Assembly (NCBI GenBank): GCA_963575645.1
Contig: OY754468.1
Location: forward strand, 24,328,465 to 24,392,464
Source of the DNA: Xanthostigma xanthostigma
Taxonomy: Eukaryota; Arthropoda; Insecta; Raphidioptera; Raphidiidae
DNA: 64,000 nt
Direction of reading: 5' to 3'
Shown: positions 4,905 to 47,722 of the stretch, in pieces
Layout of the letters: every line of letters begins with the position of its first letter
How positions within the stretch are numbered: the stretch's first letter is position 1
Notes under the pieces: model-generated
The model's input: only the letters and a program-made list of their open reading frames with translations
What the model was told of the DNA's origin: nothing
The model's database searches: none
Position numbers and translations under genes: made by a program

Positions 4905-7900
4905 CTGAAAACGTAACGTCGAATTTAATATAATTCACAATTGATTACAAAACGATCAGTCGTTTCCCTCAGATTAGATTATAATTTCGGAGCACGTGCG
5001 GACCTTGTTCAATTTATTTCTATGCATTTGTACCATGGATGTTAGGCTACGTTCACACATTGCGGTTTACCGAAACGTTTTTCGTATGCGGTTTTCAGTA
5101 GCAAATGCAAACATATAAACGTAAAACCGAATGCGGTAAAAAAAACAGTTTCGTTTATTTTTGCATCCGTGTCTTGTCACTGAAAACCGTGAGCCGCGTA
5201 CGGTACAAAAAACGAAACGGTCTCAGTGGCAATAGTATTTCTATTCTACCGTATAAGAAAAACGTATGAATGTGAATACTGAATTAGTTATTGGCGTAAC
5301 TAGTAGTCTAAGTCATTCATGGCGTGTCATGACTTAGCCTACAAGTTGCGCCCATAATTTTATTCAACAATTGCGCGTTATTCATGTTTTAATTATAATG
5401 AGATGTTGTAAATATCTATTTATTTCTTTATAAAAAAAACTGTCAATACTAACAGCACCAAACAGCACGATTCAATGTTTTGGTTTGAGGTTAGCCGGTT
5501 ATGAATAAACTCCATGTCGAAAACATTCGGCCTCTCAATTTTAGCCTCAATGGGTAACAACGGAGTTGTAGTTACCTACTATTTCGTTACGACTCAGAAA
5601 ATAGTTACGTTTATTTTCATTACTCCACAATGGCCGAGCTAGTAGGAATCTTCATTGAGTTATGACAAGTAATTGTCACCAGTCGGTAAATGGCTATTTA
5701 GGGTTCGGTTTTTAGGCATGATAAAACATGAATAACGCGCATGAGTTGAATAAACGTTTTTACTGTATATGGTAAAATCGTATAAGAATTCCGAATAGGA
5801 AAAATCGTATAGTGTGAACCTAGCCTTACAGATGTGGAAAGAATATTATTTTTAACAATAAATGTGACTTCTGATTGGTTAAAGTTGTCACTTGAACACG
5901 CTGCCGAATCCTCGATTCCTATTGGTCAAGTGCCGGATCCTAGCCCGATCATTTTGTCATCGCATCCGCTAGAGCTCTGCGATGATTGTTGCGGATGTGC
6001 AAATCAAAAATTATGCCAATGCCCAATTATGCAACTGCGGATGCAGACGTCTGCAATATTCCTAATTAGTATGTCGGTATAATAGTGCACTTGTTCCTAA
6101 TACCCAAGGTCAATGCAAAAGACCAACAATATTAGTGTTGGTTTAGTAAAAAAAAACGTAATTTTATAGCGCTCGAGACACCGAAATTACAAATTCGGCC
6201 CCAATCTGGAAGGGACGACTGTATTAACAAAAAAATTAAAAACATTTGTTATACCTGTATCGAATACAGCTCCTGTTTTTTCATGGAAGGCTTGTAATTG
6301 TAAATGGCTGACAATCATCTCTCCATGTACTGGCAATGTGCTGTTCAATTGTCTTGTTTCTGATTTATAGCATTTATAAGACATATTTAATGGTGCTGCA
6401 AAGAGTTCTTTTTGGTACCACAGATCTATTTTTTGAACACTAACTGAAAACAAAAATAATGTGATATTAAATTCTTGTATTTATTACGATTTTGCTATCA
6501 ACTTTTTACAGTCAAAGCTGTGGGTTTTTACACATAAGTGATGCTAGATTTATACACACAATTTCTTTTTGCCAATAATTTGCGTTTATCGCCTGCCGTA
6601 TTGGATCGGCGGCGGTGAAATAATATACTCTATTACCTATAGCACGTACAAGACAGATTAATAGACACCTTAGTTGTCAAAATCTGTTCAGTAGTTTAGA
6701 AGCTATGAGGCATGTTTAATTCAGTAAACCGTCCTTTTCGCAGACAATTGGGCTTTTGAATGAAAATTTTTTTTGTCATAAATGGAAAGATCGTATATAA
6801 GTTTTATAACAAAACTATTTTTATAACAAAAATATTAGGAGCACTGTGGTTTGAATCTAATAAAAATAGAGAATAGCTACTTCTTACCACAACAAGTTTA
6901 TTAGTGGATGTACATTTCGAGAGCTATGCTCTCATCTTCAGCAATAGTGTATTGCTGAAGATGAGAGCATAGCTCTCGAAATGTACATCCACTAATAAAC
7001 TTGTTGTGGTAAGAAGTAGCTATTCTCTATTTTTATTAAAACTATTTTTCTTTTTTTTATTTTCGTTATAATTCAAAAGTTTATCAAATTAAAAATAAAT
7101 TTTTGTACCCAGTTCCGAGAACGCGCCGACATTTCCCGAACATAATGTGACGTCATAATGGTAATTTATATTATTATAATAATACATGTAGAAGCCCTTG
7201 ATAGTATACTGCGTATATACATTTTAACATTATGACGTCACAACTGTCAAAAACAATTTTAGTGCGTTTGCAGTCACGTGATTTTTTTAATATTTTATCA
7301 ATTTCAAATTGCTTATAATTAATTTAAAAAAAGTTTTTTGAAAGTTTTTCGCATCGATTATCAATATTATTTATAATAAAGTTTTAAAATACAATAAAAA
7401 AAACCGATAATTATTTTTTTTTCAAAAGCCTATAATTACAGTAAAACGTAACGCTAAAGGCCCCCATACACCTCGTTCTTTTCTGGCAGTTTTAACCACA
7501 CGGGTAAAACTGTACGGGTAAGCACGAACAACGACCATATCCACACACTAGGCGTTGTTTCGTTCAGTTTTTCTGAAGTCGTGGCATCATCTGATCTGCT
7601 TTGATGGATCCTACAACGTTACAGAGTCGAACAAAACCCGTCCTTTTTAACTGCGTCGTCACACACGGGCCGACTTGAACGAACACGTTTAAAACGGACG
7701 GTTTAAATCAAGCAGCAGCAGATATTTTTGAGCGCCGGTAAGAAGGACGGTTTTTGGCCACACACCAACCGTTTTAGCCATGCGGTTAAAACTGCCAAAA
7801 AAGAACGAGGTGTATGGGGGCCTTAAGAGAATTTTATTTCTGTCTCTGTTCTTTGAAATAACACTTTTTGTATAAAATCGTGCAGCATTCACTGTAAAAA

Positions 7901-10620
7901 TGCATTGTAATTTTAACTTACCGTTCAATCCAACAAAGTGTTTATCCCTGACAATTACAGATGTGAAATTATTTATTTCAAATTTTTTGGTGGTAAGATT
8001 TCTGTTGAAATTTATTAGAATGAAATTTTCCAAATCTTCCGTTTTATTGTTAGGATCAGAGTACCAAGTTATATTGATAAACTGTGTATTGTTTCCGCAC
8101 TCTCCGACAGCTGACGCATTTGTTGGCATATTAACTTTGGCTGTGTACGATTTGTTATTTGGTGCTTTATATGTGATACTGAACTGCAATGCCATATTGA
8201 TCATGATGCACGTTTTGTTGGCAGTATCGGTGACATTATACGTGGCTGGTGAAGGATCTGGTAATGGTTTTGGTGGGACCGTAGTTGTCGATGGGGCCGT
8301 AGTTGTCGTCGTGGGTTTTTCTGTGGTGGTTGTAGTGGTAGTAGATGTCGTTGTCGGTGGAGGTGTTGGTTTTGTTGTCGTAGTCGTGGGTTTTTGTGTG
8401 GTGGTTGTAGTAGTGGTAGTAGATGTCGTTGGTGGAGGTGTTGGTGTTGCTGTCGTAGTAATAGGTTTTTGTGTGGAGGTAGACGTAGAACTTGTGGTAG
8501 ATGAGCTTGGCGCTGGAGTTGGTTCTGGCCCAATTCCAACGTCCTCGGCTGTAAAAAAAAAGTAAAATGAATTGTCATCCTCCTTTATGGAAACCCCTTA
8601 CCGATATTATTTTTCAAAAATTCCTGTCATTTATACCAAATCGTAAAAACAACATTCAATAAAGACACTGCATGTACCGCTAAATTATGTTTCCTACAAT
8701 CTATTACTATTTCATCGCTTCAAGGTAGGGGTGGGGAACCTTTTGGCACTGGATGATCGCATGTCTTTTCACGGATTTCTCGTAAAGTCTCAATTTTTTT
8801 GTATAATTATTAACCACATAACAACGATAGATCAATAAAATATTTTTAACAAAAAAATTGAACCGACTTCACACTAAAAAGTAAAAAATAATTGCGTATT
8901 GAAATGTTTTGGAGTCGGTGTCAGCCAAAATGAAATCTATTCCGAGAACTACACCGACTCCAAAACATTCAATACGCAATTATTTTTTACTTTTTAGTGT
9001 GAAGTCGGTTCAATTTTTTTGTTAAAAATATTTTATTTTTCTCTTTTTAGTGATAATCTAACACTAAAAATCGGTGAACATACATAAAAAACAGTATGCG
9101 TTTCTTTGAAATTTGAGAGTTTCCCTCGATTTCTCCGGATTCCACCATCAGATCCTGACTTGGTTCCGATGGGACCACCTCTGAGGTGCACTCTTTCGAA
9201 TAAAAAAAAATATTTGAAAATCGGTCCATAATTGACGGAGAAATCGGTGAACATACATAAAAAAAAAATATATACAGACGAACACAGAACCTCCTCCTTT
9301 TTGTTGAAGTCGGTTAAAAATAACAAATAGGTAAGTAAAGGTGCTAAACATTTTTTTATCGCACCGTTGGGATTGGATTTTTTTTGCATTTTTTCTAGGA
9401 ATTTTATACCGAATGAATTTCATTTTTAGAGGTTGATTAACGTTTAGTAATCAGAAAAATAAGCGTCAGTAGCTGACGTTCAGAGTACTAAGGGAAAACT
9501 ATCATTGTTATGATTTTCGGTCGTTCAAAAGTAACGCTGCCGCCTTCCCTACCATTAATGATGAAAGCCTTAATTGTTGAATGTATGATCTAAAACTTAT
9601 AATTGATAAAGACGCATAGTTTATAAATACGTATATGCAGTACCGAATACTTCAAAAGGTCGTTTGGCAATCTCATAATTTATTCAATTTTATGGCATTT
9701 CCTTAGGAATTTCCCCTGCTAAATTATAGGCAACTCAGCCGTTTAAAAACTTTTTTCGGCCAACAATAATACTTAATAACGGCAAATTTCGTCAATCTGT
9801 TTTGAAGAGTGTAAGTTACCAATGTAAAATATATAATATTTAAGATTCATTTTAGAAAAAAATGTTTAATTTATTTAAAAAAAATTGTGGCCTAGTGTGA
9901 AAATAATAGTCCAGAATATTTTTCTTTACGAAAATGTCTTTTCAAATGAGTATCTGCTCAGTATCTTTTATGTCGTTTCTCCTTATTGTTATAAAAACGT
10001 ATAATGGTATGACGACGATTATACTGCAATGCATCAATTTAGAAAAGTTATCATGAAATCAGAGAATCTATTATCTACCCAGCGTTTCGCAACACCAAGA
10101 ATTTAACCCCACTCTCACTTTCAGATAAAAAACCCCCTATTTACTTTTTGATAAAAAAAAAGAATCCAACAAATAAAAAGATAGAATGTAAATTTATAAG
10201 TGCACGAAAGATTTCCAATAAAATTGATTAGCAGTGTTTTACAACTTCCTAAGGGACCACTAAACTGCATGTTTGCATTTTACTAATATGCGATAGGCAA
10301 TATCACATATCAATATAGACAGTCTACAATATGGAAGTATATCATTTTCATTGTTTTTAAATTGACAAAATCTGTTACGGAATGATTGTTGTGGGAATTA
10401 ATAAAATAGGTATTTGATTTCTTTTAACTGAGCTAAGGACAATCATGTGACGGCGGTTAAGATGACTGGCCAGAAACAGTACGTCACAAATGAGTAAACG
10501 ACTGACAACAGCATCGCCATTTTTACTTATTGACAATTTATTATAAATTTAATTAATTTACATACCACCGTTCACCAGCAATATCACCGAAAATAAGATA
10601 AACGTAAGTTTTAATTCCAT
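4762..10620 (-). CDS. Lamp1: LAMP-family lysosome-associated membrane glycoprotein, 4 exons
   Basis: Spliced CDS: exons 10620-10566, 8548-7922, 6443-6255 and 4904-4762 (all minus strand), giving 1014 nt and 337 residues. Every intron is GT-AG and phase 1, and the frame stays open. Residues 1-18 are a signal peptide ([18 protein letters not shown]). Residues 28-112 form a mucin-like Thr/Pro stalk with repeated TQKP/TEKP blocks. One LAMP domain follows, with cysteines at 131, 168, 252 and 294 (spacings 37 and 42, as expected for its two disulphides) and about 11 N-glycosylation sequons. Residues 301-325 span the membrane, and the short tail [12 protein letters not shown] ends in a GYxxPhi lysosomal-sorting signal. 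A single domain on a mucin stalk resembles CD68/LAMP3 more than the two-domain vertebrate LAMP1/2; the symbol follows usual insect naming. Known role of the family: heavily glycosylated protein of the late endosome and lysosome membrane. Family call very sure; exact orthology not. Confidence 0.93.
5045..5825. mobile_element. Harbinger-type MITE in LAMP intron 3, TSD TTA
   Basis: The ends GGCTACGTTCACAC and GTGTGAACCTAGCC are inverted repeats, flanked on both sides by TTA (5042-5044 and 5826-5828). A 3-bp TWA duplication is characteristic of PIF/Harbinger. The interior (781 bp in all) has repeated GCGGTTT/ACCGAAA words and no transposase. Confidence 0.8.
6255..6443 (-). CDS. Lamp1: LAMP exon 3 (second half of LAMP domain)
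   Basis: The acceptor is TTTTCAG above 6443; the donor is GTATAAC below 6255. The exon begins with the completed Val228 and contains the third conserved cysteine in NMSYKC. The length of 189 nt preserves the phase-1 pattern. Confidence 0.92.
6750..7431. repeat. Dispersed repeat family 1, copy A (LAMP intron 2)
   Basis: The element starts GGGCTTTTGAATGAAA and ends TTTCAAAAGCC, so GGCTTTTGAA is the terminal inverted repeat. It shares long blocks with 49278-49916 (for example GTTCCGAGAACGCGCCGACA and GAAGCC.TTGATAGTATACTG). It has no coding capacity. It is interrupted by the palindrome at 6858-7038, which is absent from copy B. Confidence 0.78.
6858..7038. repeat. 180-bp near-perfect palindrome, Penelope-tail-like
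   Basis: Two inverted copies of a ~85-bp unit meet at AGCAATAGTGTATTGCT (6942-6958). The unit carries CTGAAGATGAGAGC-ATA-GCTCTCGAAA followed by a target-like word for AATAAACTTG. This resembles the hammerhead-like 3' tails of Penelope-like elements. It sits inside repeat copy A, flanked by a duplicated AAACTATTTTT, as expected for an insertion. Confidence 0.72.
7458..7823. mobile_element. Harbinger-type MITE in LAMP intron 2, TSD TAA
   Basis: The 366-bp element has ~40-bp terminal inverted repeats starting AGGCCCCCATACACCTCG, flanked by TAA at 7455-7457 and 7824-7826. It ends about 100 bp from the exon 2 donor. Part of it extends the exon 2 frame by read-through only. Confidence 0.85.
7922..8548 (-). 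CDS. Lamp1: LAMP exon 2 (mucin stalk and first half of LAMP domain)
   Basis: The acceptor is a T-run followed by ACAG just above 8548; the donor is GTAAGT starting at 7921. The exon encodes residues 19-227 plus one base. The stalk shows three decayed repeats of the type TQKP(T)n-PTPPPTT. A valine/glycine-rich 221-codon frame on the opposite strand of this repeat (7900-8565) is only its shadow. Confidence 0.93.
8835..9036. repeat. 200-bp palindrome in LAMP intron 1
   Basis: Arms of about 85 bp (including AACCGACTTCACACTAAAAA and its inverse) flank a ~30-bp centre at 8921-8950. An AACCGACTTCA end is common in insect retroelement tails, so this is probably an inverted dimer of a repeat end. Confidence 0.7.
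9037..9330. repeat. Interspersed retroelement-tail-like repeat
   Basis: Contains ATCGGTGAACATACATAAAA twice (9071 and 9244 areas) and ends CCTCCTTTTTGTTGAAGTCGG. Such blocks with GAACCTCCTCC..GAAGTCGGTT are widespread insect repeats (established pattern, recalled rather than searched). No protein. Confidence 0.55.
10566..10620 (-). CDS. Lamp1: LAMP exon 1 (signal peptide)
   Basis: The ATG at 10618-10620 opens 18 codons of hydrophobic signal sequence plus one base. The donor is GTATG just below 10566. The split codon G|CC joins to exon 2 and encodes Ala19, the likely first luminal residue. No in-frame coding is seen upstream, so 10621 to about 10800 is probably 5' UTR or promoter, but no core promoter motif is clear. 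Confidence 0.88.
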
Positions 10621-12565: not shown

Positions 12566-13717
12566 ATTAATATAGGTACTGTGAATAAATAAGACAGAAC
12601 ATTGACTTTGTAAATCTCTATCATCTATGCTCCCCAGCTATGATCTTGAATTATTGCATAGGTTGCGTAATATTATGTAATAAAACTATGTCTAATTTTT
12701 TGTTCTACACCAAGTAAAATAGTTGCTTTGCATGCTTGTATGCAGGTACAATTTCATATGTTTGTCAGTTAATGTTTTTTAAACATATACTATATTTTAT
12801 AGTGACGTTTGTTCAGAAGTGATTTGTCAAACATTTTGAAAATGAAGTGAAAGCAGCTGTTTTATAAGAGGTACGTGCAAAAAATACCCCACATACCTTG
12901 TACGTAATTGTATTACGACTCGTGTGACTGTTAAAACTCGCTTTAAATATAATATCACAACTTGTCGGAGTATCAATAAAATACAATATGTCAATTTTTT
13001 TAATATAAGTATGGTTTAATTGGCCTCAACATTTTCTAATATAAACAGCCATGTCAATACATTCGGTAATATTCCGAACTAAACGACAGACAAAAAAAGA
13101 AATAATATTATAGTAAGAATCTCAATATAAATACAGCTTGATATAGTGTCCCTATTTATTATCGTTTAATTGTAAATCATCTTGCATGTTATGTAAATAG
13201 GAAATATAAAGAAAATTTTAAAATAAACTTTTCCATTTGTTATTTTTAATTTTTGGTGTCGCTTTATCTGGCCTACGATATTATTGAAATAAAGTTCAAA
13301 CAAAACATAAATTATAGCAAAGAGAGCTAGCAACGTGTTTAATCAAATTGTCCGATAACAATTCTGGACATAGAAAATTACTGAGTCCAAAAAAGTAAGC
13401 TTAAACAAAATAAGTACCGCGACATTAAACTAAACTGAAAAACAAGTCTCTGTCTACTTTTTTGTGATTGTTCAAATCAGTTATACATTAAATCCGCTGC
13501 TAGCTCGCATCCTATAGTCAAAAATAGACTACAGAATTATTTATATTTATTATTTTTCAAAACCACTGTACATAATATCATAATTTTTATTTAAAAATGT
13601 TATAACTGTCAACAACCCATACTATTTATGACAACAAAAATATGAAGTTAAAATTTTGGAGTTTACATTATGCAGTTTTGCGATAAAATTAGACATATAG
13701 TTTTATATTTATTCAAT
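12566..13717. other. AT-rich non-coding, nothing recognised
   Basis: No supported gene or repeat boundary. Confidence 0.5.
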
Positions 13718-13718
13718 A

Positions 13719-14068
13719 CTAGCGGTCCCGCCCGGTTTCACCCGGGTGCAAAAGAACGAATAGGGAAAGGACAAGAGATCGCATGTTCTTCTTCATTTAC
13801 CGAGATGAATGTTGTGTCCAAATTTCATGATGATCGGAGTTACCGTTCAAAAGTTTTTGTCGGACGGACAAATTTTGAGTTATATTTTGCAACATTTTTC
13901 ATTGATGCTCCGCTCCTATTGGTCGTAGCGTGATATTATATAGCCTATAGCCTTCCTCGTTAAATGGACTATCCAACAAAAAAAAATGTTCAATTCGAAC
14001 CAGTAGTTCCTGAGATTAGCGCGTTCAACCAAACAAACAAACTCTTCAGCTTTATATATTAGTATAGA
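13719..14068 (-). mobile_element. Short non-autonomous Helitron, family 1, copy a
   Basis: On the minus strand it starts TCTATACTAATATATAAAGC and ends with the palindrome CCCGGGTGAAACCGGGCGGG..CTAG, inserted between A and T. This is the Helitron layout (5' TC, 3' hairpin plus CTAG, no target duplication). 350 bp, the simplest family member, with no captured insert and no Rep/Helicase. Confidence 0.88.
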
Positions 14069-14120
14069 TTATTATAGATAATAATCTATCGTTATGTATC
14101 TTAAGGATCAAAACTATCAG

Positions 14121-20257: not shown

Positions 20258-20789
20258 GCGCAGTGCAAGAATCTCCAACTTTCTACCCTTGTAGTGTATT
20301 ATACTATATTCCAGGGAACTTTTACAAATCAATCGCAATACTAAAGGAAGTCCGCCGCGATAGTGGAAACTTTCGGGGTTCGTATCCCGACGGTGTTGAA
20401 AAAAACAGTAGCTATACTTTAAACTGTTTTTATAGTATAGTTACGAACTATACCGTAATAGAAATTTATAAAAACTAAAGGAAATCTTTCAGGTTTTCGA
20501 GAAATTAGTTTTATATTTACGATCCATCATTTTTCTGAGTCACTGTACTGTGTGTATACCATTTTTTTCTGATTTATTTAACTGTTAACACGTCATGCTG
20601 AAAGTGTGTAATGTTAGATTCTCAAATTTCCATGAATCGGTTCGTTATTTTCCTCTCCATCACGTGCCTACTGATAAAATTAATGTTTCATAAAAATACT
20701 ATAAGAAATAGATAAAAATTTATAATTTAAACTGCGGAGAGTTGGAAAAAACTTGCAGTTCTGTGAACTGTAGACGTCGCTTCCTTATA

Positions 20790-21405
20790 CTAGAGGTCCC
20801 GCCCGGTTTCACCCGGGTGCAAAAGAACGAATGGGGAAGGAAGGGACATGAGTACACACATTCATCTTAGTTTACCGAGATGAATGTTGTGTTCAAATTT
20901 CATGATGATCGGAGTTACCGTTCAAAATTTTTTGTCGATAAAGAGCAGTATTTAAACTTTTTTTAACTAATAATTTTTTTTAAATGAATTAAATAAAATT
21001 AAAATAAATTTAAATGTAAGCCTTAGAAGAAAGCAATGTAAAAATAAAAATAAAAATATATTCACCCAACGTGGGGCTCAAACCCACGACCCTGATATTG
21101 ACAGTCGTATGCGCTACCGATTGGTCTACCTGAGATTGTGTTCTTTCATCACTAATATGAGTATATCTAGTTAGTGCATTACACATGAATAGAAGCTTAT
21201 TTTTGAGATACTTTTTGCAACATTTTTCATTAAAGCTCCGCTCCTAATGGCCGTAGCGTAATATTATATAGCCTATAGCCTTCCTCGGTAAATGGGCTAT
21301 CCAACAAAAAAAAATTATTTTATTTGAACCAGTAGTTCCTGAGATTAGCGCGTTCAAACAAACAAACAAACAAACAAACTCTTCAGCTTTATATATTAGT
21401 ATAGA
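20790..21405 (-). mobile_element. Non-autonomous Helitron, family 1, copy b, with captured tRNA-like insert
   Basis: Same ends as copy a (minus-strand TC start at 21405, hairpin plus CTAG at 20793-20790). Relative to copy a it has an extra block of about 270 bp (20937-21205) holding a tRNA-Lys-like sequence. Helitrons are known to capture host fragments. No Rep/Hel frame. Confidence 0.87.
21062..21134 (-). pseudogene. tRNA-Lys-derived pseudogene inside a Helitron
   Basis: Minus-strand sequence retains the D-arm AATCGGTAGCGC and an intact T-arm and 3' side, GGGTCGTGGGTTTGAGCCCC then ACGTTGGG, which match the body of eukaryotic tRNA-Lys(CTT). The anticodon position now reads GTC, the anticodon stem is broken and the acceptor 5' strand does not pair, so it is a pseudogene rather than an active gene. 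Confidence 0.75.
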
Positions 21406-21414
21406 TATCTGTTG

Positions 21415-21815
21415 GAGTGTCACAACCATATACTTTTATTCTATACTGAATAAAATCGCAATCGAACCATGAGGATGCAAACATATACTTCTGTCTTTTT
21501 TACGCCGTAAGCACTGGCGTATCCAGGAGGGCAAAACAAGCACGGGGGACCCGGTTTTAGAAATTTCTAATTTGCTCCCTCCTGGGCCAAAAGCTGGGAA
21601 TGCCCATGTTAACGTCATAGAAAAAGACAAACTTTTTGACGCAGAGATACTTTATTCAGATTGAATGCAAGTACATCAACCAATCCTATCCTCGGAGAAA
21701 TTAGAGAATTACATCGAAGAAAGAGACGCAGTTTTCGATACGCTTTGTTGCCTTCGCTCAACGCACATTGAGTAGATAGACAATGATTCATATAGTAAAT
21801 TTAATTTAACAAAGT
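21415..21815 (-). repeat. Dispersed repeat family 2, copy 2
   Basis: Inverted copy of 12135-12563, starting right after Helitron copy b. It holds a fuller version of the hAT-like insert (21512-21610, CACTGGCGTATCCAGGAGGG to GCATTCC..CATG inverse). Confidence 0.65.
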
Positions 21816-22078
21816 TTCATATTCCTGCTCACCAAACTGACATTCTTTATTTCGATCACATCAATAGGTACATCTATTAGAATGTCACAACCATATTATG
21901 TGTAAAGCAAGTAGCAACTGTCCTATATTAAAGAACAAGTCCGTATATAAACGAACTGAAGATTTAAAACAGGTTGTGTAAGAAGCATATATTTTACAAA
22001 CGGACTAGTCGATTTATAAAAAGAATTGTAATAAAATAATAAAGCACACTAAAAACTCAAAATTAAAATACCTAGGTA

Positions 22079-22284
22079 GTTTTTTTTAAGTTGAACTTTT
22101 ATGGTACAATCGATGATGCACTAAATGTTAGAAAATAAATATGTATATCAGTAATCTGAGGCTTTGATCACACTAAAATAAAATCGTCTAAGCCCCATAT
22201 AGTAGACCCACAATTATTTTATAGCTTTTAGTACATCATCGTCCATCGATTGTACAAGAAAATCGTTCAACTTAAAAAAAATTA
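22079..22284. repeat. Inverted repeat, arms about 65 bp
   Basis: TTTTTTTAAGTTGAAC...ACAATCGATGATG is mirrored by CATCGTCCATCGATTGT...GTTCAACTTAAAAAAA around a ~75-bp centre. Related words occur at 42780-42880. Confidence 0.65.
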
Positions 22285-22769
22285 GTTGTTTTTTAGAAAC
22301 AAAACAAGCTGTCTAATAATTAATATAATATGCAATAAAGAAGGCAACCACCATAACGTCACAGAATTAAAACAGCCTAGCTGCATGTAAGTATCAAGAA
22401 ACAAATAGCAGATTGTGTCTTCAGAATTACTTCAAATGTTTATTTACTAGCTGCCCGCTCTGACTTTATCCGGAAATAAACCAGATAGATTCCGTGAATA
22501 TAAAATGTAATTGTTTGTAATAGACAGGATATACCAGTTTTATAATGCACTAGCGGTAGCGCCCGGTTTCACCCGGGTGCAAAAGAACGAATGGGGAAGG
22601 GAGGGACATGAGTACGCACATTCATCTTAGTTTACCGAGATGAATGTTGTGTCCAAATTTCATGCTGATTGGAGTTACCGTTCAAAAGTTTTTGTCGTTA
22701 AAAAGCAGTAATTATACTTTTTAGATAATAAATTTCTTTTAAATCAATTAATGGAATTAATAAAATATA

Positions 22770-23388
22770 CAGTGTAAACTCTTTATAACGTCCTTCGTTA
22801 TAACGAAAAACTCCCTATAACGTCGAAATTTTTACGATTTGGTTGGTTTACCTTAAAACCTATACATTAATACCCTCTTTATAACGCAACAGCCATTCTC
22901 TATTACGAAGAAATATGTTCATATTTAGGCGTCAGCAAAGGTTTACAGACATAAAGAGGACCATTCTGAACCATCACTATCTATTCAACAAGCACTTGAT
23001 GACGCCAAACTTATCGAAAAATTCCTATTATTTAATGAAGATTATTCCACCACATCCCAAGGCATGCATAAGATACTTAAAATACAAAACAAATATTGGC
23101 ATAGCGAAAAACGTCAGGCAAAAACAAACTATAGATAGGTATATGTGTTTGGAATAAATTAATTTTGTGAAAATTGGTTATTTTTCTTTCTTCCCTCCAT
23201 ATAACGAAAATTCTTTATAACGAAAAAAATGTTCGGTCCCTTAAAATTCGTTATAAAGAGATTATACAGTACATTGAAGATTATTGTTAATTTGGTTGTT
23301 TTTCTTTCTTCACTCCATATAACGGTAACTCTCTATAACGATAAAAAATGCTCGGTCCCTTGAGTTTCGTTATAAAGAGTTTACACTG
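22770..23388. mobile_element. pogo/Tigger-like DNA transposon remnant, TA target site
   Basis: The ends CAGTGTAAACTCTTTATAACG and its inverse are flanked by TA. The sequence near the right end is present twice (about 23190-23280 and 23300-23388, each with TATAACG...TCGGTCCCTT...CGTTATAAAGAG), a partial tandem duplication. It keeps only a transposase C-terminal scrap, so it is non-autonomous. Confidence 0.85.
22978..23148 (+). pseudogene. Tigger-type transposase C-terminal remnant
   Basis: One frame reads LSIQQALDDAKLIEKFLLFN then EDYS..., which resembles the QALDDAxxIEKFLLF helix near the C-terminus of Tigger/pogo transposases. The DDE core and N-terminal DNA-binding domains are missing. Confidence 0.6.
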
Positions 23389-23570
23389 TAATAAATATTT
23401 AATTGAAAACACTGTAGGAAAATTATTTTTATATAGGTCCCTATAGTTATAACAGTTTTCAAATGAGTTATTAATTAGATTTATTTAATTTTAATTAGTC
23501 GTAATTAAATTAAAATAAATTTAAATGTAAGAAAGTAAAGTAAAAAATAAAAAAAAATTAAACATTTATT

Positions 23571-23614
23571 CGCCCAACGTGGGGCTCGAACCCACGACCC
23601 TGATATCAAGAGTC
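23571..23614 (-). pseudogene. tRNA-Lys(CTT) 3'-half fragment in a Helitron
   Basis: On the minus strand, GACTCTTGATATCAGGGTCG then TGGGTTCGAGCCCCACGTTG then GGCG: the CTT anticodon, variable and T-arm match tRNA-Lys(CTT) almost exactly. The 5' half is lost. It is closer to the source tRNA than the copy at 21062-21134. Confidence 0.8.
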
Positions 23615-24421
23615 ACGTATAGTCGTAGCGTGATATTATATTATAGCCTATAATAGCCTTCCATGGGCTATCCACAAAAAAAAATTTTCAATTTGAACCA
23701 GTAGTCCCTGAGATTAGCGCGTTCAAACAAACAAACAAACTCTTCAGCTTTATATATTAGTATAGATTCTAATTGATAAATTATATTTATCTATTTATCT
23801 CTGTACTAAATAATCCCTTCTGCTTCAACACCTCTATGCCTCAAAGGCTTAAACAATCTGCTTAGAGCAGCCATGGGCATTTAGGTTAATCATTAGTTGG
23901 CACGTGTGAAGGTCAATAAGATCTTCTTTTAGGGTGGAATCTGCATTACAAATAGATTAAAACACAGTTTTGTTGAAAATCTTTCGGAAGCTTTTTCTAC
24001 AAAAAAAAATGTCTATTTCTCATTTCTCGTTGTCATATTAATTACAGAAATTAAAATGTCGCTACAAAAATGACGTAACATTCGACTAACCTGTGATTGA
24101 CTAACTAGGTCTACTGTGTCACGTTCACTGATCTGTGCAAATCGCAATCCAGATAATTCATATACATCTCTTTCTATAGATAAATACGTGTGACTCTCTT
24201 CTATGTCATCAGTATCATATATGACGGTTTTTAATTCTTGTTTTCAATTAAGAGGAAGAGTGAAAGAACGAAAAAGTTGGTTTAAATTATTTATAAGGAT
24301 TAAGACGCAGTTTGCAGTGTTCAAAATTATCAAATTTTTAAGTGAGAAGATCACTATATCAAATATATGTATGTATATAGGTAATAAAGTTTATTTTAAA
24401 ACCTAGCAAGCCTCTATAATT

Positions 24422-24959
24422 CAGAGGTTCCCAAACTTTTTTGTCTCGTAGACCACTTGCCATGTTTTTCGGTTTTGGGTAGACCCCCTGCTTATCTGAT
24501 ATTGATTTTTTGCAAATTCATTAATTTCAAATGTATTTTTGACAACCGGTATAGTGCTACTCACTTTGAACGATTTAAATTTATAACGGTAGTGAAATGT
24601 AGTGTGAAATGTTTAGTTTTATACATTTATTAATTAGATTCAAATTAAACGAATCAAATTAAAATTTACTTTCTGTTACATAAAATAACTAAGCAAAAAA
24701 TAAATGCTTTAAGTGTGAGAAATGAACCTGATGCTTTAATAATAAATTTTCAACATTTGGCATCAATTTAGTTAGATTTAATCTTAAATCTCTTCAGTTA
24801 ACGATGTCCAGTTTGTTTTTTTTATTTGTTAGGAGATTCACTAACGTTGACCCCCATTTTCATTTCATGGACCCCCAATTTTTTTTCCCGCTGACATGGA
24901 CCCCTTGCAAGTTGTCGTCGACCCCCGGGGGTCGATATAGACCACTTTGGGAATCACTG
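24422..24959 (+). mobile_element. hAT-like MITE, family H1, copy 1
   Basis: Ends CAGAGGTTCCCAAACTTTTTT and CACTTTGGGAATCACTG, the GTTCCCAAAC style typical of hAT. The interior has GACCCCC-rich stretches. Target duplication only approximate (CTCTATAA/CTCTATAT). Inverted relative to the copy at 25370-25903. Confidence 0.75.
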
Positions 24960-25369
24960 CTCTATATAGTGTACAGCTATTATGTTATTGTTTTTTGGTA
25001 AATTTTCAGGTCATTTACGACCTATCCTTATAAAGAATAAAACCATGTTTAAGTGTATAAAATATTATGTAACGATTCAATTTTAAAAGATGATTTTGCA
25101 TAGGTTTGGTATCATTTCTACGCAAAAGTGTTGTTCATGAAGATTTCCTAAGATCGATTACAATAAATAGATAATAATATTATAATATAATACTATACAA
25201 GGTGTGCTCTGTCATGATTTATACTGTTAAATAAATCAATGAAATGTCAAAGTTTAAAATAATTGCGTTTCTGTGTAAGTACACTGAACCAAAAGTAGCG
25301 TATACACTATACACGTGTCCATACGGTAGAAATATCAATAATAATAAATTCCACGCCGTGTCTGTCTAT

Positions 25370-25903
25370 AGTGATTCCCAAAGTGGTCTATATCGACCCC
25401 CAGGGGTCGACGACAACTTGCAAGGGGTCCATGTCAGCGGGAAAAAAATTGGGGGTTCATGAAATGAAAATGAGGGTCAACGATAGTGAATCTCTTAACA
25501 AAAAAAGAAACAAACTGGACATTGTTAACCGAAGAGATTTAAGATTAAATATAACTAAATTGATGCCAAATGTTGAAAATTTATTATTAAAGCATCAGGT
25601 TCATCCCTCCACTAAAAGCATTTATTTTTTGCTTAGATATTTTATGTAACAGAAAGTAATTTTTAATTTGATTCGTTTAATTTGAATCTAATTAATAAAT
25701 GTATAAAACTAAACATTTCACACTACATTTCACTACCGTTATACATTTAAATCGTTCAAAGTGAGTAGCACTATACCGGTTGTCAAAAATACATTTGAAA
25801 TTAATGAATTTGCAAAAAATCAATATCAGATAAGCTGGGGGTCTACCAAAAACCGAAAAACATGGCAAGTGGTCTACGAGACAAAAAAGTTTGGGAACCT
25901 CTG
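25370..25903 (-). mobile_element. hAT-like MITE, family H1, copy 2
   Basis: Nearly the full inverse of 24422-24959 (AGTGATTCCCAAAGTGGTC to GGGAACCTCTG). Flanks CTGTCTAT/GACTCTAT match at 6 of 8. It is inserted immediately next to the mariner-type transposase remnant and may have truncated it. Confidence 0.75.
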
Positions 25904-25924
25904 GACTCTATCTGATCGTTATTC

Positions 25925-37587: not shown

Positions 37588-38868
37588 TTATGGCACATCT
37601 TTCCAATAGAAAAATCTGGGAAAAAATTCTGTTATTAATTCTTCCAAAAAAAGTACATTGTCTTTCAGATTTTTTTTGTTGGCTTTTTCAAATACAATTA
37701 TTTTTTCCATAATCGGTCTTCGACTGCTTATAAGCACTCGCATAAACGTTTTGATAGCACTAAATTTCTTATTTGCGTATAAAAATTTGATAGAAGAAAA
37801 TAATTTATCTTCAGTTTCAAAATGGCGTTGCGCTACATTCATTTCCAAAAGTTGGACAAGTAAAGGTAAAAATAAATTATTTCGATTATTGTCAGTAATT
37901 AGGCGAGCAAATATCTTAATCAAAATATCCAATTGATTCCAATTGATTACACGTAGATCACAACATAATTTAAGAACACTTGAAAACCTGTGATGATGAT
38001 AATGATTTTTCACAATAACAACGAGTAATTTCAAACCAGTGTATTGACTTTTATGATTTTTTACGAAATATTCCAGATCTCCATGACTTGCATATCTTAG
38101 CAGGAAATCAAGTAGATTTTGCGTAGGAGATTCGGATGACAGAATCAAACACTCTTTAATCAGAATTGTTCGTTGAGTAGGAGACATTCTTTTATATACG
38201 ATTTCCAAAACTCCCCAGTAATCACTAAAATCCCAATTTAGACCTCTCATTCTATCGAAAAAGAGGGGAACACAATCTTTTTGTATGAAATCATCCAACG
38301 CATGCAAATTGTAATCGAGTTCTGATGACAGCAAACGCAGAATTTGTAACCAAACTTCTGATATGATGATGTCAGCTCTAGTCTGAAATTCATGTCTTCG
38401 ACTTGTCATAAAGTTGACTAGTAATTCTTTCCCGTTTGTACCAAAACAATTTTGTTCTCTCATCAAAAAAACTAAACTCTCTTCACAATAACAATAGTAT
38501 GCAATTTTTATGCGCGTCTCTATGTCGATTGATGCGTTTTGGAATATACATTTCTTTAGCGTACTCTTCACGTTAATTTCGCCGTTCGTGGTCCAGTCAA
38601 TTGAATTTCCAAAATGTATAAGCATCGTATTATTCCCAACGAAGCTATTCACGTAATTTATAAGCATACGTACGTCGCAACTTCTCAAATCTATCAGTTG
38701 CTTTAATTGAGTCAATGATTTCTCGTCTAAAATCATCGCATCAACGATTGTTTTTAAATATATTATAATATCTGGTAGGCTCATCGAGACACATTGCCTT
38801 TGCACTAATTCCGAACACCATATTCGAGTCACTAAATAATTTTTTGCAATCGAGCGTAATGGTAACAT
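37588..38868 (-). CDS. Uncharacterised intronless protein, probably all-helical
   Basis: The first ATG (38866-38868) gives 426 residues ending ...FFYWKDVP with TAA at 37588-37590. The frame stays open upstream to 38961 without an ATG (it contains FGEQFCDPVLTKFESKNF). The gene may therefore have an upstream exon joined at an AG near 38923, or simply start at this ATG. At about 31% GC, an open frame this long is very unlikely by chance. The protein is rich in Leu, Ile, Phe and Lys, with regularly spaced amphipathic helices and no signal peptide or clear membrane segment, which suggests a HEAT/ARM-like or other helical repeat. The start (PLRSIAKNYLV...LPDIIIYLK) faintly recalls a SOCS-box pattern (helix, then LP..I..YL), but this is weak. 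I do not recognise the family. No coding neighbours lie within several kb. It could be a lineage-specific expanded gene or a recent retrocopy; no A-rich tail follows the stop. Confidence 0.72.
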   Translation of the reverse strand: MLPLRSIAKNYLVTRIWCSELVQRQCVSMSLPDIIIYLKTIVDAMILDEKSLTQLKQLIDLRSCDVRMLINYVNSFVGNNTMLIHFGNSIDWTTNGEINVKSTLKKCIFQNASIDIETRIKIAYYCYCEESLVFLMREQNCFGTNGKELLVNFMTSRRHEFQTRADIIISEVWLQILRLLSSELDYNLHALDDFIQKDCVPLFFDRMRGLNWDFSDYWGVLEIVYKRMSPTQRTILIKECLILSSESPTQNLLDFLLRYASHGDLEYFVKNHKSQYTGLKLLVVIVKNHYHHHRFSSVLKLCCDLRVINWNQLDILIKIFARLITDNNRNNLFLPLLVQLLEMNVAQRHFETEDKLFSSIKFLYANKKFSAIKTFMRVLISSRRPIMEKIIVFEKANKKNLKDNVLFLEELITEFFPRFFYWKDVP

Positions 38869-39073
38869 TATATTTCGTGAGAAATTTTTCGATTCAAATT
38901 TAGTTAACACGGGATCACAAAACTGTTCACCAAAATATAATATAGAACTTGTAACTAATCTTTAGTCGTCCGAAATAAATAGTTTTCTATATCTTTGAGC
39001 AAGCACTGTTTTTCTGCGTGTTACAGAACCTTACACCAAAATGCAGATCAATTAGTTAAGAAAGGGTCAAGGT

Positions 39074-45190: not shown

Positions 45191-47124
45191 TTTTTTTAAG
45201 TTTTTAGTGTGCTTTCTTAAAAGTGCAATTTGCATTCGAAAAAAAGCCGGACCGGTCAGTTGGTTGAATTTTAACTCAATCGGCTAACGGGAAGTAGTTG
45301 AAAAAGTTGTCGCATGCTTTATTAAAAGTGCGATTTGCATCTGGACGAAAGCCGGACCGGTCAGTTAGTTATTGCCATCGGAACTGAACCAACATGTAAA
45401 AATTCAACTCCGTAGGACAAGAGGAAGTGGTTCTAATTCAGTTGGCAAGATTTAACTTAAACTCCTAATAAACTCAATAATAAACGATGATCCCGAATTT
45501 ACATTGGGTTGAAAGCTATAAATGATCTCAATTGTCTATAAATTGATTCGATGTAGCGATGTAGTGTTTTTTTTAAATATGCATCCTTCTTGGCAATCGA
45601 TATTGAAAGTCAACTCTAAGACCTCTCTTAATATTACCAACTTATTTTAAGTAAAAAATTAATACAATGCGCAGATATCCCCCGACTACAAGTGCCTTGA
45701 CATTTTAATGGCATTCTTTGTGATGCACGAGGTTTCATCCTCCATTCATAATAATGACATTTTGTTATTTATATTTAGCATTTACATTGTTCGTGCGTTA
45801 ACATCTTACTGCCTCAAAACTTGTATAGTTCCTAGTATTAAATTTTGTATTCAGATGGAATTTTTATCACGTAGAAGAGATCTAATTACCAATAGAAAAT
45901 TGTTTATTTGATTTTATATTTTAAACATACGCAATTTAAACATTTTTAGGCGAGCCAGTCACCCTCAATTTTTTGCCTTCATCGCGACTTATCATTAGCG
46001 AATGTCTGATTTTCCAGATTCGAATCGGTAAATTATATTACTTATTGCTATACATTTTAAAATTTTTAAGATGCGAACTAACAAACATTTACTTACCTAC
46101 TAAATAAAGGTAAAAATGACGTTTTTGTGTGACCTTCTATTAAAAAAAACTGTTTTTCACGCCTGTATAGCGGTAGTAAATGATCCCAAAAAGTTTTCAA
46201 CTCCCGAATACTCTTGGAACCGAGCATAACCGAATCGGGCTAGTATTTTAATAAATGCACTTTTTTTTCAATTATTAGAATGTTACAAAATCTAAAGTGG
46301 AATTCCAGCAATCATTATCGAATCATACAGGAAGGTTATGTGAATCTTATGTTCGTGAATAAAATAAAACTAATTAGGGTAATGTTTTTGGCACGAAAAC
46401 TAGATGACCTACTTGTTAAATGCAAAATATTTCTGCTCTGAAAATATTAAAACAAAGTTGCCTTTGTCGTTTGTTTCTATTAATAGTAGGTACTCAATTA
46501 TTTGCTTTGCAAAATTGAATTATAAAAAGTGCAAATTGATTACGAATCAATATTTATATATAAGCTTTCACAATAAAAATGTCAAAGTATCATCCGATGA
46601 ATTGTTACGTACTTGGCTAGATATTTACGATGTTGGATTTGAACAAAAAATGGATGGAAATAAACGATGATTTAATATTAATTTTTGTTGGAAAGACAAC
46701 AGTTATAAAATTAACTTTGACTCTAGCTGTTGCTGTTTTTACAGTTATCGGTTTCATCATCATCATTAATAAATAAGATGTATATTATTATTATGTAAAA
46801 AGTGCAGCAAAATATCTATTATTAACAGTTGATAAATAAGTGCCATTACAATAACCAGTTTTTTTTTGCAAAATAGAAATCATCAACGCTATTAAGTTCG
46901 ATTTATTAAAATTTATTTAACTCATAAAAGGGGTTCTCAGTCAACGCAAATTAAGTAGCAAAAAACGTTTTACTTTTTTAATTTTTTACATAGTCAGATC
47001 TTAGCTTTTTACTAATTAGTTGTAGGTACCCAATTTTATTTGCGTGCATTTTTCAACGACAAAAATCGATAAAGACTATTTATATACATACCTATATAGG
47101 TATACCTATGTATACTAATCTATA
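45191..47124. other. Non-coding with two decayed Helitron-like ends
   Basis: Direct repeats at 45190-45258 and 45305-45366 share GTGC(A/G)ATTTGCAT and GCCGGACCGGTCAGTT. Nothing else recognised. Confidence 0.45.
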
Positions 47125-47479
47125 TCTATACTAATATATAAAACTGAAGAGTTTGTTTGTTTGGTTGAACGCGCTAATCTCAGGAACTACTGATTCGAAT
47201 TGAAAAAAATTGTTTGTGTTGGATAGTCCATTTATCGAGGAGAGCTATAGGCTATATAATAATATTACGCTACGACCAATAGGAGCGGAGCATCAATGTA
47301 AAATGTTGCAAAATATAACTCAAAACTTGTCCGTCCGACAAAAACTTTTGAACAGTAACTCCGATCATCATAAAATTGGGACACAACATTCATCTCGGTA
47401 AATGAAGAAGAACGTGCGTACTCTTGTCCCTCCCCCATTCGTTCTTTTGCACCCTAGTGAAACCGGGCGTGACCGCTAG
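47125..47479 (+). mobile_element. Non-autonomous Helitron, family 1, copy d
   Basis: Plus-strand TCTATACTAATATATAAA at 47125 and hairpin plus CTAG at 47476-47479. Full-length relative of copy a without a captured insert; 355 bp. Also gives the 63-codon frame 47210-47401, which is not a gene. Confidence 0.88.
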
Positions 47480-47722
47480 TAATATATAAAAATATCGTGT
47501 CACGATGTTCGTCCGAGCTAATCTCTGAAACCACTGAACCGGTTTTTTTTTGATATTTTGTAAATGTGTCTTGTTTGGTCCAACTTACACTATAGGGTAG
47601 TTTTTATAATATTTTGACATTTTCCAAAAAACTGTTTTACTAACATTTAGTTCAGAAGAAAATTTGGTAGAACTTACTCAAAATTATTAGTGAAAATAGG
47701 TGAAACCGGGTCGGGCCGCTAG
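47480..47722 (+). mobile_element. Second Helitron-like unit, abutting copy d
   Basis: Starts at TAATATATAAAAATATCGTG and ends GGTGAAACCGGGTCGGGCCG then CTAG. Different internal sequence (ACGATGTTCGTCCGAGC), so a different family inserted at the CTAG|T end of the previous one. Confidence 0.65.

Follow-up and report, generated by a model that had tools for sequence, protein, structure and literature searches.

The window analysed here is a 64,000-nucleotide stretch of the genome of Xanthostigma xanthostigma (Raphidioptera; contig OY754468.1), in which blastn of two elements, copies b and c, revealed four related short elements, copies a to d. Copies a (13716..14069; found with copy b, termini read), b (20788..21407, ~620 bp; blastn, alignment and termini) and c (22549..23767; blastn and alignment) lie in minus sense, and copy d (47122..47481; blastn and termini) in plus sense. 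Copies b and c share an extra block that is absent from a and d and that contains a body resembling a transfer RNA (tRNA) for lysine. We describe a to d as a non-autonomous Helitron family and consider it very probable that the block goes back to a single capture of a tRNA-Lys(CTT) gene, which was then amplified as passenger cargo.

In copy b, whose 5' TC end is at the high coordinate and whose CTAG 3' end is at the low one, the block consists of the tRNA with its flanks, is ~262 bp long and occupies 20938..21199 on the minus strand (edges approximate, from alignments). Within it, a decayed tRNA-Lys-like body spans 21063..21135, also minus, in which GTC occupies the anticodon position (21100-21102). 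The alignment puts the block of copy c at the same place as in b, split by a miniature inverted-repeat transposable element (MITE) and with a truncated tRNA part: the 5' half is deleted, while the 3' half (23571..23619, minus) keeps the CTT anticodon at 23608-23610. The tRNA coordinates in both copies were read off the window letters and are approximate; in both, the tRNA has the sense of the Helitron. The alignments thus agree with the initial annotation, which had reported the block in b and c alone and a CTT anticodon with the tRNA 3' half in copy c. It had also described the GTC of copy b as drift; the GTC itself is there, but it is not a private change, being present in all 39 fetched relatives of b and hence fixed in that subfamily (40/40). 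The MITE in copy c (22771..23391, no strand assigned; blastn and termini) is a ~620-bp, TA-flanked element with CAGTGTAAACTCTTTATAACG inverted ends and internal near-repeats, which we take to be pogo/Tigger-like.

The ends of the four elements are those of Helitrons. In the minus-strand reading, copies a to c start A|TCTATACTAATATATAAAG, carry a CCCGG...CCGGG hairpin and finish in CTAG|T, and copy d follows the same plan with a changed hairpin; the terminal sequences of the family are TCTATACTAATATATAAAG and GGGACCGCTAG. Among 43 copies surveyed (a to d plus 39 fetched from this genome), the 5' TC was present in 39, as A|TC in 38, and the exact hairpin stem in 39. The 3' end was exactly CTAG in 35 copies and CTAG|T in 34, the remaining eight reading CTAA (three, still CTRR) or CTAT (five). 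A 5' TC after A, a 3' subterminal hairpin and a CTRR end followed by T, with no target duplication, were all found, so that the Helitron identity proposed by the initial annotation holds and a to d are a non-autonomous Helitron family. Three fetched loci (L015, L045 and L047) have a second Helitron-start-like sequence right behind the 3' end, as expected of tandem rolling-circle products.

Within the window, the evidence for a tRNA is resemblance only, because ARAGORN called no tRNA gene in it and the Rfam tRNA model gave no match in copy b or c, even when short segments were searched with E values as high as 10; the closest Rfam match in these copies was a 6.7-bit transfer-messenger RNA hit on the T arm of copy c. 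The identity rests on the relatives. The consensus of the b subfamily (b and 39 relatives) is identical to a metazoan tRNA-Lys-CTT reference at 57 of 64 aligned nucleotides. In older subfamilies the tRNA is almost whole: the Rfam tRNA model reached or exceeded its gathering score in 17 out of 19 Helitron loci given to it, with 37.0-57.3 bits and the tRNA at the homologous place; the two that failed, L056 and L058, both lack the tRNA 5' half. L115, a locus that is not in a Helitron, also passed. ARAGORN called a tRNA in 9 of 11 relatives of a first set and in 22 of 30 of a second (21 Lys CTT and one Gln), one of the 22 being L097, again outside a Helitron. Reversed-pattern controls gave 0 in every pattern search that was answered, so the resemblance is not due to chance. 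The distance from the TC end to the start of the tRNA is ~265-285 nt in most Helitrons read, and the sense of the tRNA was that of the Helitron in 11 out of 11 loci of one set and in all 26 elements (of 41) with both ends read. Its surroundings are those of a tRNA gene: no CCA follows, and a T-run (first T4) begins a median of 6 nt downstream of the tRNA, within 23 nt in 75 of 76 loci. The consensus match and the Rfam-passing tRNAs at the same place in homologous Helitrons bear out the tRNA-Lys derivation that had first been suggested from copies b and c.

The 623 Mb assembly of X. xanthostigma was scanned with patterns in order to count copies with and without the block, as had been proposed. 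The tRNA 3' part with a GCGAATAT-type flank was found at 5,675 places (≤3 mismatches), by an ungapped pattern that misses a subfamily with a one-base acceptor deletion (GTCGGCG); some loci fetched in other searches lie among these places. The 43-nt part of copy c from the anticodon to the 3' end matched at 1,088 places (≤3 mismatches) and a D-arm/anticodon pattern at 1,050 (≤1 mismatch). For the junction without the block, as in copies a and d, there were 6,950 places (≤3 mismatches), and the three that were fetched were all Helitrons; the ratio of loaded to empty elements is rough, since a tRNA 3' part and an empty junction are unlike stretches. Among 71 fetched tRNA loci (L048-L118; 68 distinct places, three fetched twice, with copy c as L064), Helitron sequence flanked the tRNA on both sides in 63, on one side in six and on neither in two (L097 and L115). 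Searches beyond this genome, in viral contigs, phages and plasmids, gave no match.

All block edges that could be read fall at one shared position. The empty site GTCCGTCCGACAAAAACTTTTG corresponds to GTCCGTCCGACAAA, the block and CGACAAAAACTTTTG in filled elements; GTCCGTCCGACAAAAACTTTTGAACGG is the reading in empty elements, and in one old filled subfamily it is GTCCGTCCGACAAATATTATCAGG, followed by the tRNA. The right edge was readable in 36 of the 61 loci printed and is mostly TTTTTATCGACAAAAACTTTTGAACGG or near it. In the old subfamily, the 7-bp sequence CGACAAA stands at both edges of the block, and it is single in empty elements; the copy at the left edge is kept in L093, L109 and L117 and, with one change, in L101. 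The block begins with ~60 nt of non-Helitron sequence upstream of the tRNA. In a tree, copies a and d group with each other and not with the 30 tRNA-bearing rows (support 0.96); its rows are 32 of 47 assembled elements (41 plus 6 of the b subfamily), the rest being without a recognisable flank, and one place is represented twice (L072 and L110). The block is most simply explained by one ancient gain followed by amplification. Two further groups of loci have mixed structures: in L099 and L101 the tRNA block is followed by another junction of the empty type, which suggests template switching between loaded and empty Helitrons, and L056 and L058 share a foreign 5' part in place of the tRNA 5' half, which suggests a chimeric Helitron that itself spread.

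Three other origins of the block were considered and rejected. Two independent insertions of a short interspersed element (SINE), at different positions in the two Helitrons, would have contradicted capture; the same position and the shared flanks in the loci printed rule them out. The missing CCA, the tRNA-gene flanks and the T-run rule out both a primer-binding site and reverse transcription of a mature tRNA. Long terminal repeats (LTRs) have TG...CA ends; by eye, no such ends with a 4-bp duplication occur at the block edges, which rules out an LTR of the Helenus type.

We therefore favour, with high though not full confidence, a single capture by the following route. A non-autonomous Helitron family would have acquired, most likely once, a piece of host DNA with a tRNA-Lys(CTT) gene, its own 5' flank and its RNA polymerase III (Pol III) terminator. 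Its site of entry within the Helitron would be GTCCGTC-CGACAAA, where filler DNA at a staggered break could have left the short duplication of 7 bp, and the difference from copies a and d would then be a gain in the loaded lineage and not a loss in a and d. The loaded Helitron, presumably with RepHel provided in trans, would have multiplied by rolling-circle transposition and given rise to thousands of copies in several subfamilies. The tRNA would have been passenger cargo, presumably without function, its anticodon stem broken by different changes in each subfamily; copy b would represent the GTC subfamily and copy c a CTT/TATCA subfamily.

Several observations weigh against this account. The left-edge copy of CGACAAA is kept at just 4 of 61 edges and lost in the other subfamilies, so that a single old subfamily carries the evidence for the duplication; the right edge is unreadable in 25 of the 61 loci, and the second junction in L099 and L101 also counts against it. 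The CGACAAA repeat would also permit an empty state to arise by deletion between its copies, so that a and d may have lost the block precisely at a later time. The searches of this genome found no donor locus outside Helitrons. L097 and L115 are tRNA-Lys-like sequences outside any recognisable Helitron, and six of the 71 fetched loci are flanked on one side only. Five of the 43 copies surveyed for their ends have CTAT instead of CTRR. The conservation of the tRNA in most loci is moreover biased upward, because these loci were picked by tRNA similarity.

The alternative that survives best, although we regard it as improbable, is that a tRNA-derived SINE or another transposon, distinct from the Helitron, entered a Helitron a single time, made a 7-bp target duplication and has been hitch-hiking since as the block. 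It would account for CGACAAA at both block edges in the old subfamily and its single copy in empty elements, and a 7-bp duplication fits the insertion of a retroposon or a DNA transposon. However, a SINE begins with its tRNA head, and here ~60 nt of non-Helitron sequence lead up to the tRNA, which does not stand at the 5' end of the element; nor could Pol III read through the body without an early terminator, as in a SINE, with the T-run so close behind the tRNA. By eye, the block has neither a poly-A or LINE-like tail nor terminal inverted repeats. At least one Helitron side was found in 69 of the 71 fetched loci, whereas an active SINE would be expected mostly elsewhere. The ~60-nt lead, the close T-run and the lack of CCA give the block the look of a tRNA gene with its flanks, not of a SINE.

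Stem scoring covered 115 of 121 loci in one set and 76 of 82 in another, overlapping one; six were dropped each time for want of an ungapped match. All five anticodon-stem pairs occurred only in L115, outside a Helitron (one of the 76 scored), and in none of the 39 b-type copies, and the complete cloverleaf of a functional tRNA-Lys(CTT) was not found. The stem is broken by A29C in one subfamily, by C40G with T41C in another and by C40A with other changes in the c type. The canonical anticodon stem survives in halves, its 5' half (TGAGA) in one lineage and its 3' half (TCTCA) in another, so that their common ancestor was probably intact. The minimum-energy fold of the b-subfamily tRNA is no cloverleaf and is not stabler than shuffles (z 0.95; copy b 0.81). 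An older form of the tRNA is stabler than its shuffles (z -2.44); in its fold the acceptor and D stems are present, but the middle hairpin is not the anticodon arm. In the young b subfamily, divergence from the consensus is 1.36% in the tRNA and 1.20% and 1.05% in its flanks; as the tRNA diverges as fast as the flanks, there is no constraint on it in this subfamily. The 39 b relatives were chosen by whole-element similarity, the other sets mostly by tRNA similarity.

The initial annotation had supposed that a captured Pol III gene would give the Helitron an internal promoter; the boxes for one are kept in many relatives but not in all. The consensus of both the A and the B box is kept in 42 of the 76 scored relatives, a sample chosen for the most part by tRNA similarity; in copy b, each box departs from the consensus at one position, and copy c has lost the half that holds the A box. 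It is possible that some box-intact copies give rise to a tRNA-sized Pol III RNA. With a T-run at a median of 6 nt past the tRNA body, such a transcript would not be of element length and would cover neither end. Helitrons move without an RNA intermediate. The proposed hybrid of Helitron mobility and SINE-like transcription was not borne out, given the early T-run, the internal position of the block, the broken anticodon stems and the lack of constraint in the b subfamily.

A stronger form of the hybrid idea, that the internal promoter is kept as its transcription helps the Helitron (through open chromatin, an R-loop at the origin or an RNA product), appears very unlikely to us. The 42 relatives with both boxes speak for it, even if no Helitron-borne one has a fully paired anticodon stem, and so do the constant sense of the tRNA in the 11 loci and in the 26 elements read at both ends, and the similar number of tRNA places and empty junctions. 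Yet the 76 relatives were mostly selected by tRNA similarity, so that box conservation among them is biased; in the 39 b relatives, which are free of this bias, the tRNA is under no constraint (1.36% against 1.05-1.20% in the flanks) and ~17% of A-box sites differ from the canonical tRNA. Helitrons without the block are also as numerous as loaded ones, so the boxes are not needed for movement. The element is best read as a Helitron with unusual cargo, not as a hybrid that uses its tRNA for movement.

The matches listed by seven pattern searches of this genome include no ordinary tRNA-Lys(CTT) gene outside Helitrons; the patterns required GAGC ahead of the anticodon arm and GACTCTTAATC within it, or tolerated few mismatches to the canonical sequence, two of them show the 5' half only, most places listed in the CTT searches are known from the listed letters alone, and the assembly may lack genes. 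The exact canonical 39-nt 3' part occurs at 11 places, each with Helitron on at least one side. The canonical 5' part (≤2 mismatches) occurs at 82 places, and the TGAGA/TCTCA stem appears in the listed letters only for L115, in which the anticodon stem is fully paired and the acceptor broken, its 5' end being unpaired. Two stem patterns (5 and 23 matches) yielded nothing that combines CTT with a fully paired stem in the letters listed. As a positive control, 13 of the 23 matches of one stem pattern are tRNA-Lys(TTT), and the eight fetched (L124-L131) were confirmed by ARAGORN. An intron-bearing host tRNA-Lys(CTT) was also sought: eight of the 58 matches were fetched, and by eye these are Helitron-type tRNA sequences. 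L115 itself, tRNA-Lys-like with an encoded CCA and outside a recognised Helitron, is perhaps a retro-pseudogene or a SINE head.

It might be supposed that Helitrons took over the AAG-reading tRNA-Lys, so that the original CTT genes would be gone and a few box-intact Helitron copies with a near-intact cloverleaf would supply tRNA-Lys(CTT); the Helitron beside all 11 exact matches, the lack of a fully paired stem in any listed CTT match except L115 while 13 tRNA-Lys(TTT) were recovered, and scores of up to 57 bits for some Helitron copies in Rfam (74.5 for tRNA-Lys(TTT)) point that way, but the five anticodon-stem pairs are in none of the 76 scored loci except L115 and in none of the 39 b-type copies, and, because the patterns were narrow and not exhaustive (two showing the 5' half only), most places read from the listed letters, 63 of 57,534 candidates scored with the Rfam tRNA model and the assembly perhaps incomplete, we give this supposition next to no credence.

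Elsewhere in the window, a long inverted repeat (24415-25910) has four paired stretches of 72-301 nt that are 90-97% complementary, with a fold-back or hAT-like look, and a short tRNA-like stretch at 20346-20400 (GGGGTTCGTATCCCGACGGTG) resembles the B-box region of a SINE. Two open frames were seen, 7689-8597 (minus, 302 codons) and 37588-38961 (minus, 457 codons), the former Thr/Pro-rich and, by eye, with the look of a LAMP-type membrane protein. Two fetched loci, L138 and L139, combine a tRNA-like head (GGTACCGGGTTC.AATCCCGGCGG) with a common downstream body and probably represent a SINE of tRNA origin that has no relation to the Helitron.

With passenger cargo as the preferred reading, it appears that a Helitron captured a complete Pol III gene and carried it to several thousand places, a rare multiplication of a small-RNA gene by a transposon, mostly as broken remnants. 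A DNA transposon can thus flood a genome with tRNA-like sequences, which gene finders will call tRNA-Lys. The filled and empty sites also form a large set for studying capture, decay and any influence on Pol III or AAG decoding. Helitron capture has so far been known mainly for pieces of protein genes, and for a non-coding RNA the matches listed from the literature searched, which included few subscription journals, hold one proposal, from a plant, and no demonstrated case (PMC10701932).

The insect Hel1 families (PMC6544945) and Hel-2/BmHel-2 (PMC4344730) are, like the present element, short and non-autonomous with a 3' hairpin. For Hel1, TC/CTRR ends are taken as the Helitron mark, captured sequence is internal and a filler-DNA model is preferred to end bypass (PMC6544945); we likewise favour the filler-DNA route, by insertion at a staggered break, for the present block. 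The Hel1 cargo consists of gene fragments, and the word tRNA is absent from the main text of that article (PMC6544945), whereas the present element carries, at thousands of places, a Pol III gene together with its promoter and terminator. tRNA-derived SINEs, such as those of Lepidoptera (PMC8010984), share with our element a tRNA body with A and B boxes, but in the present case the tRNA lies away from the 5' end, a terminator lies behind it and the ends are those of a Helitron. Helenus and other TRIMp3 elements are LTR retrotransposons with tRNA-derived sequence, a primer-binding site, a polypurine tract and, in animals, 4-bp duplications (PMC10886601). The LTRs of Helenus in Hymenoptera have been aligned with tRNA-Lys-CTT, a likeness to the present cargo (PMC10886601); unlike Helenus, our element ends like a Helitron and lacks a target duplication around itself, and TG...CA ends with a 4-bp duplication were not found. 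In Arabidopsis, a tRNA-Cys cluster overlaps annotated Helitrons and the authors raise tRNA capture, which would be the first example (PMC10701932). That cluster is small and local, and Helitron-finding programs gave no reliable prediction over its tRNA genes (PMC10701932); in X. xanthostigma, the ends of the element, its empty and filled sites and copies across the whole genome are at hand.

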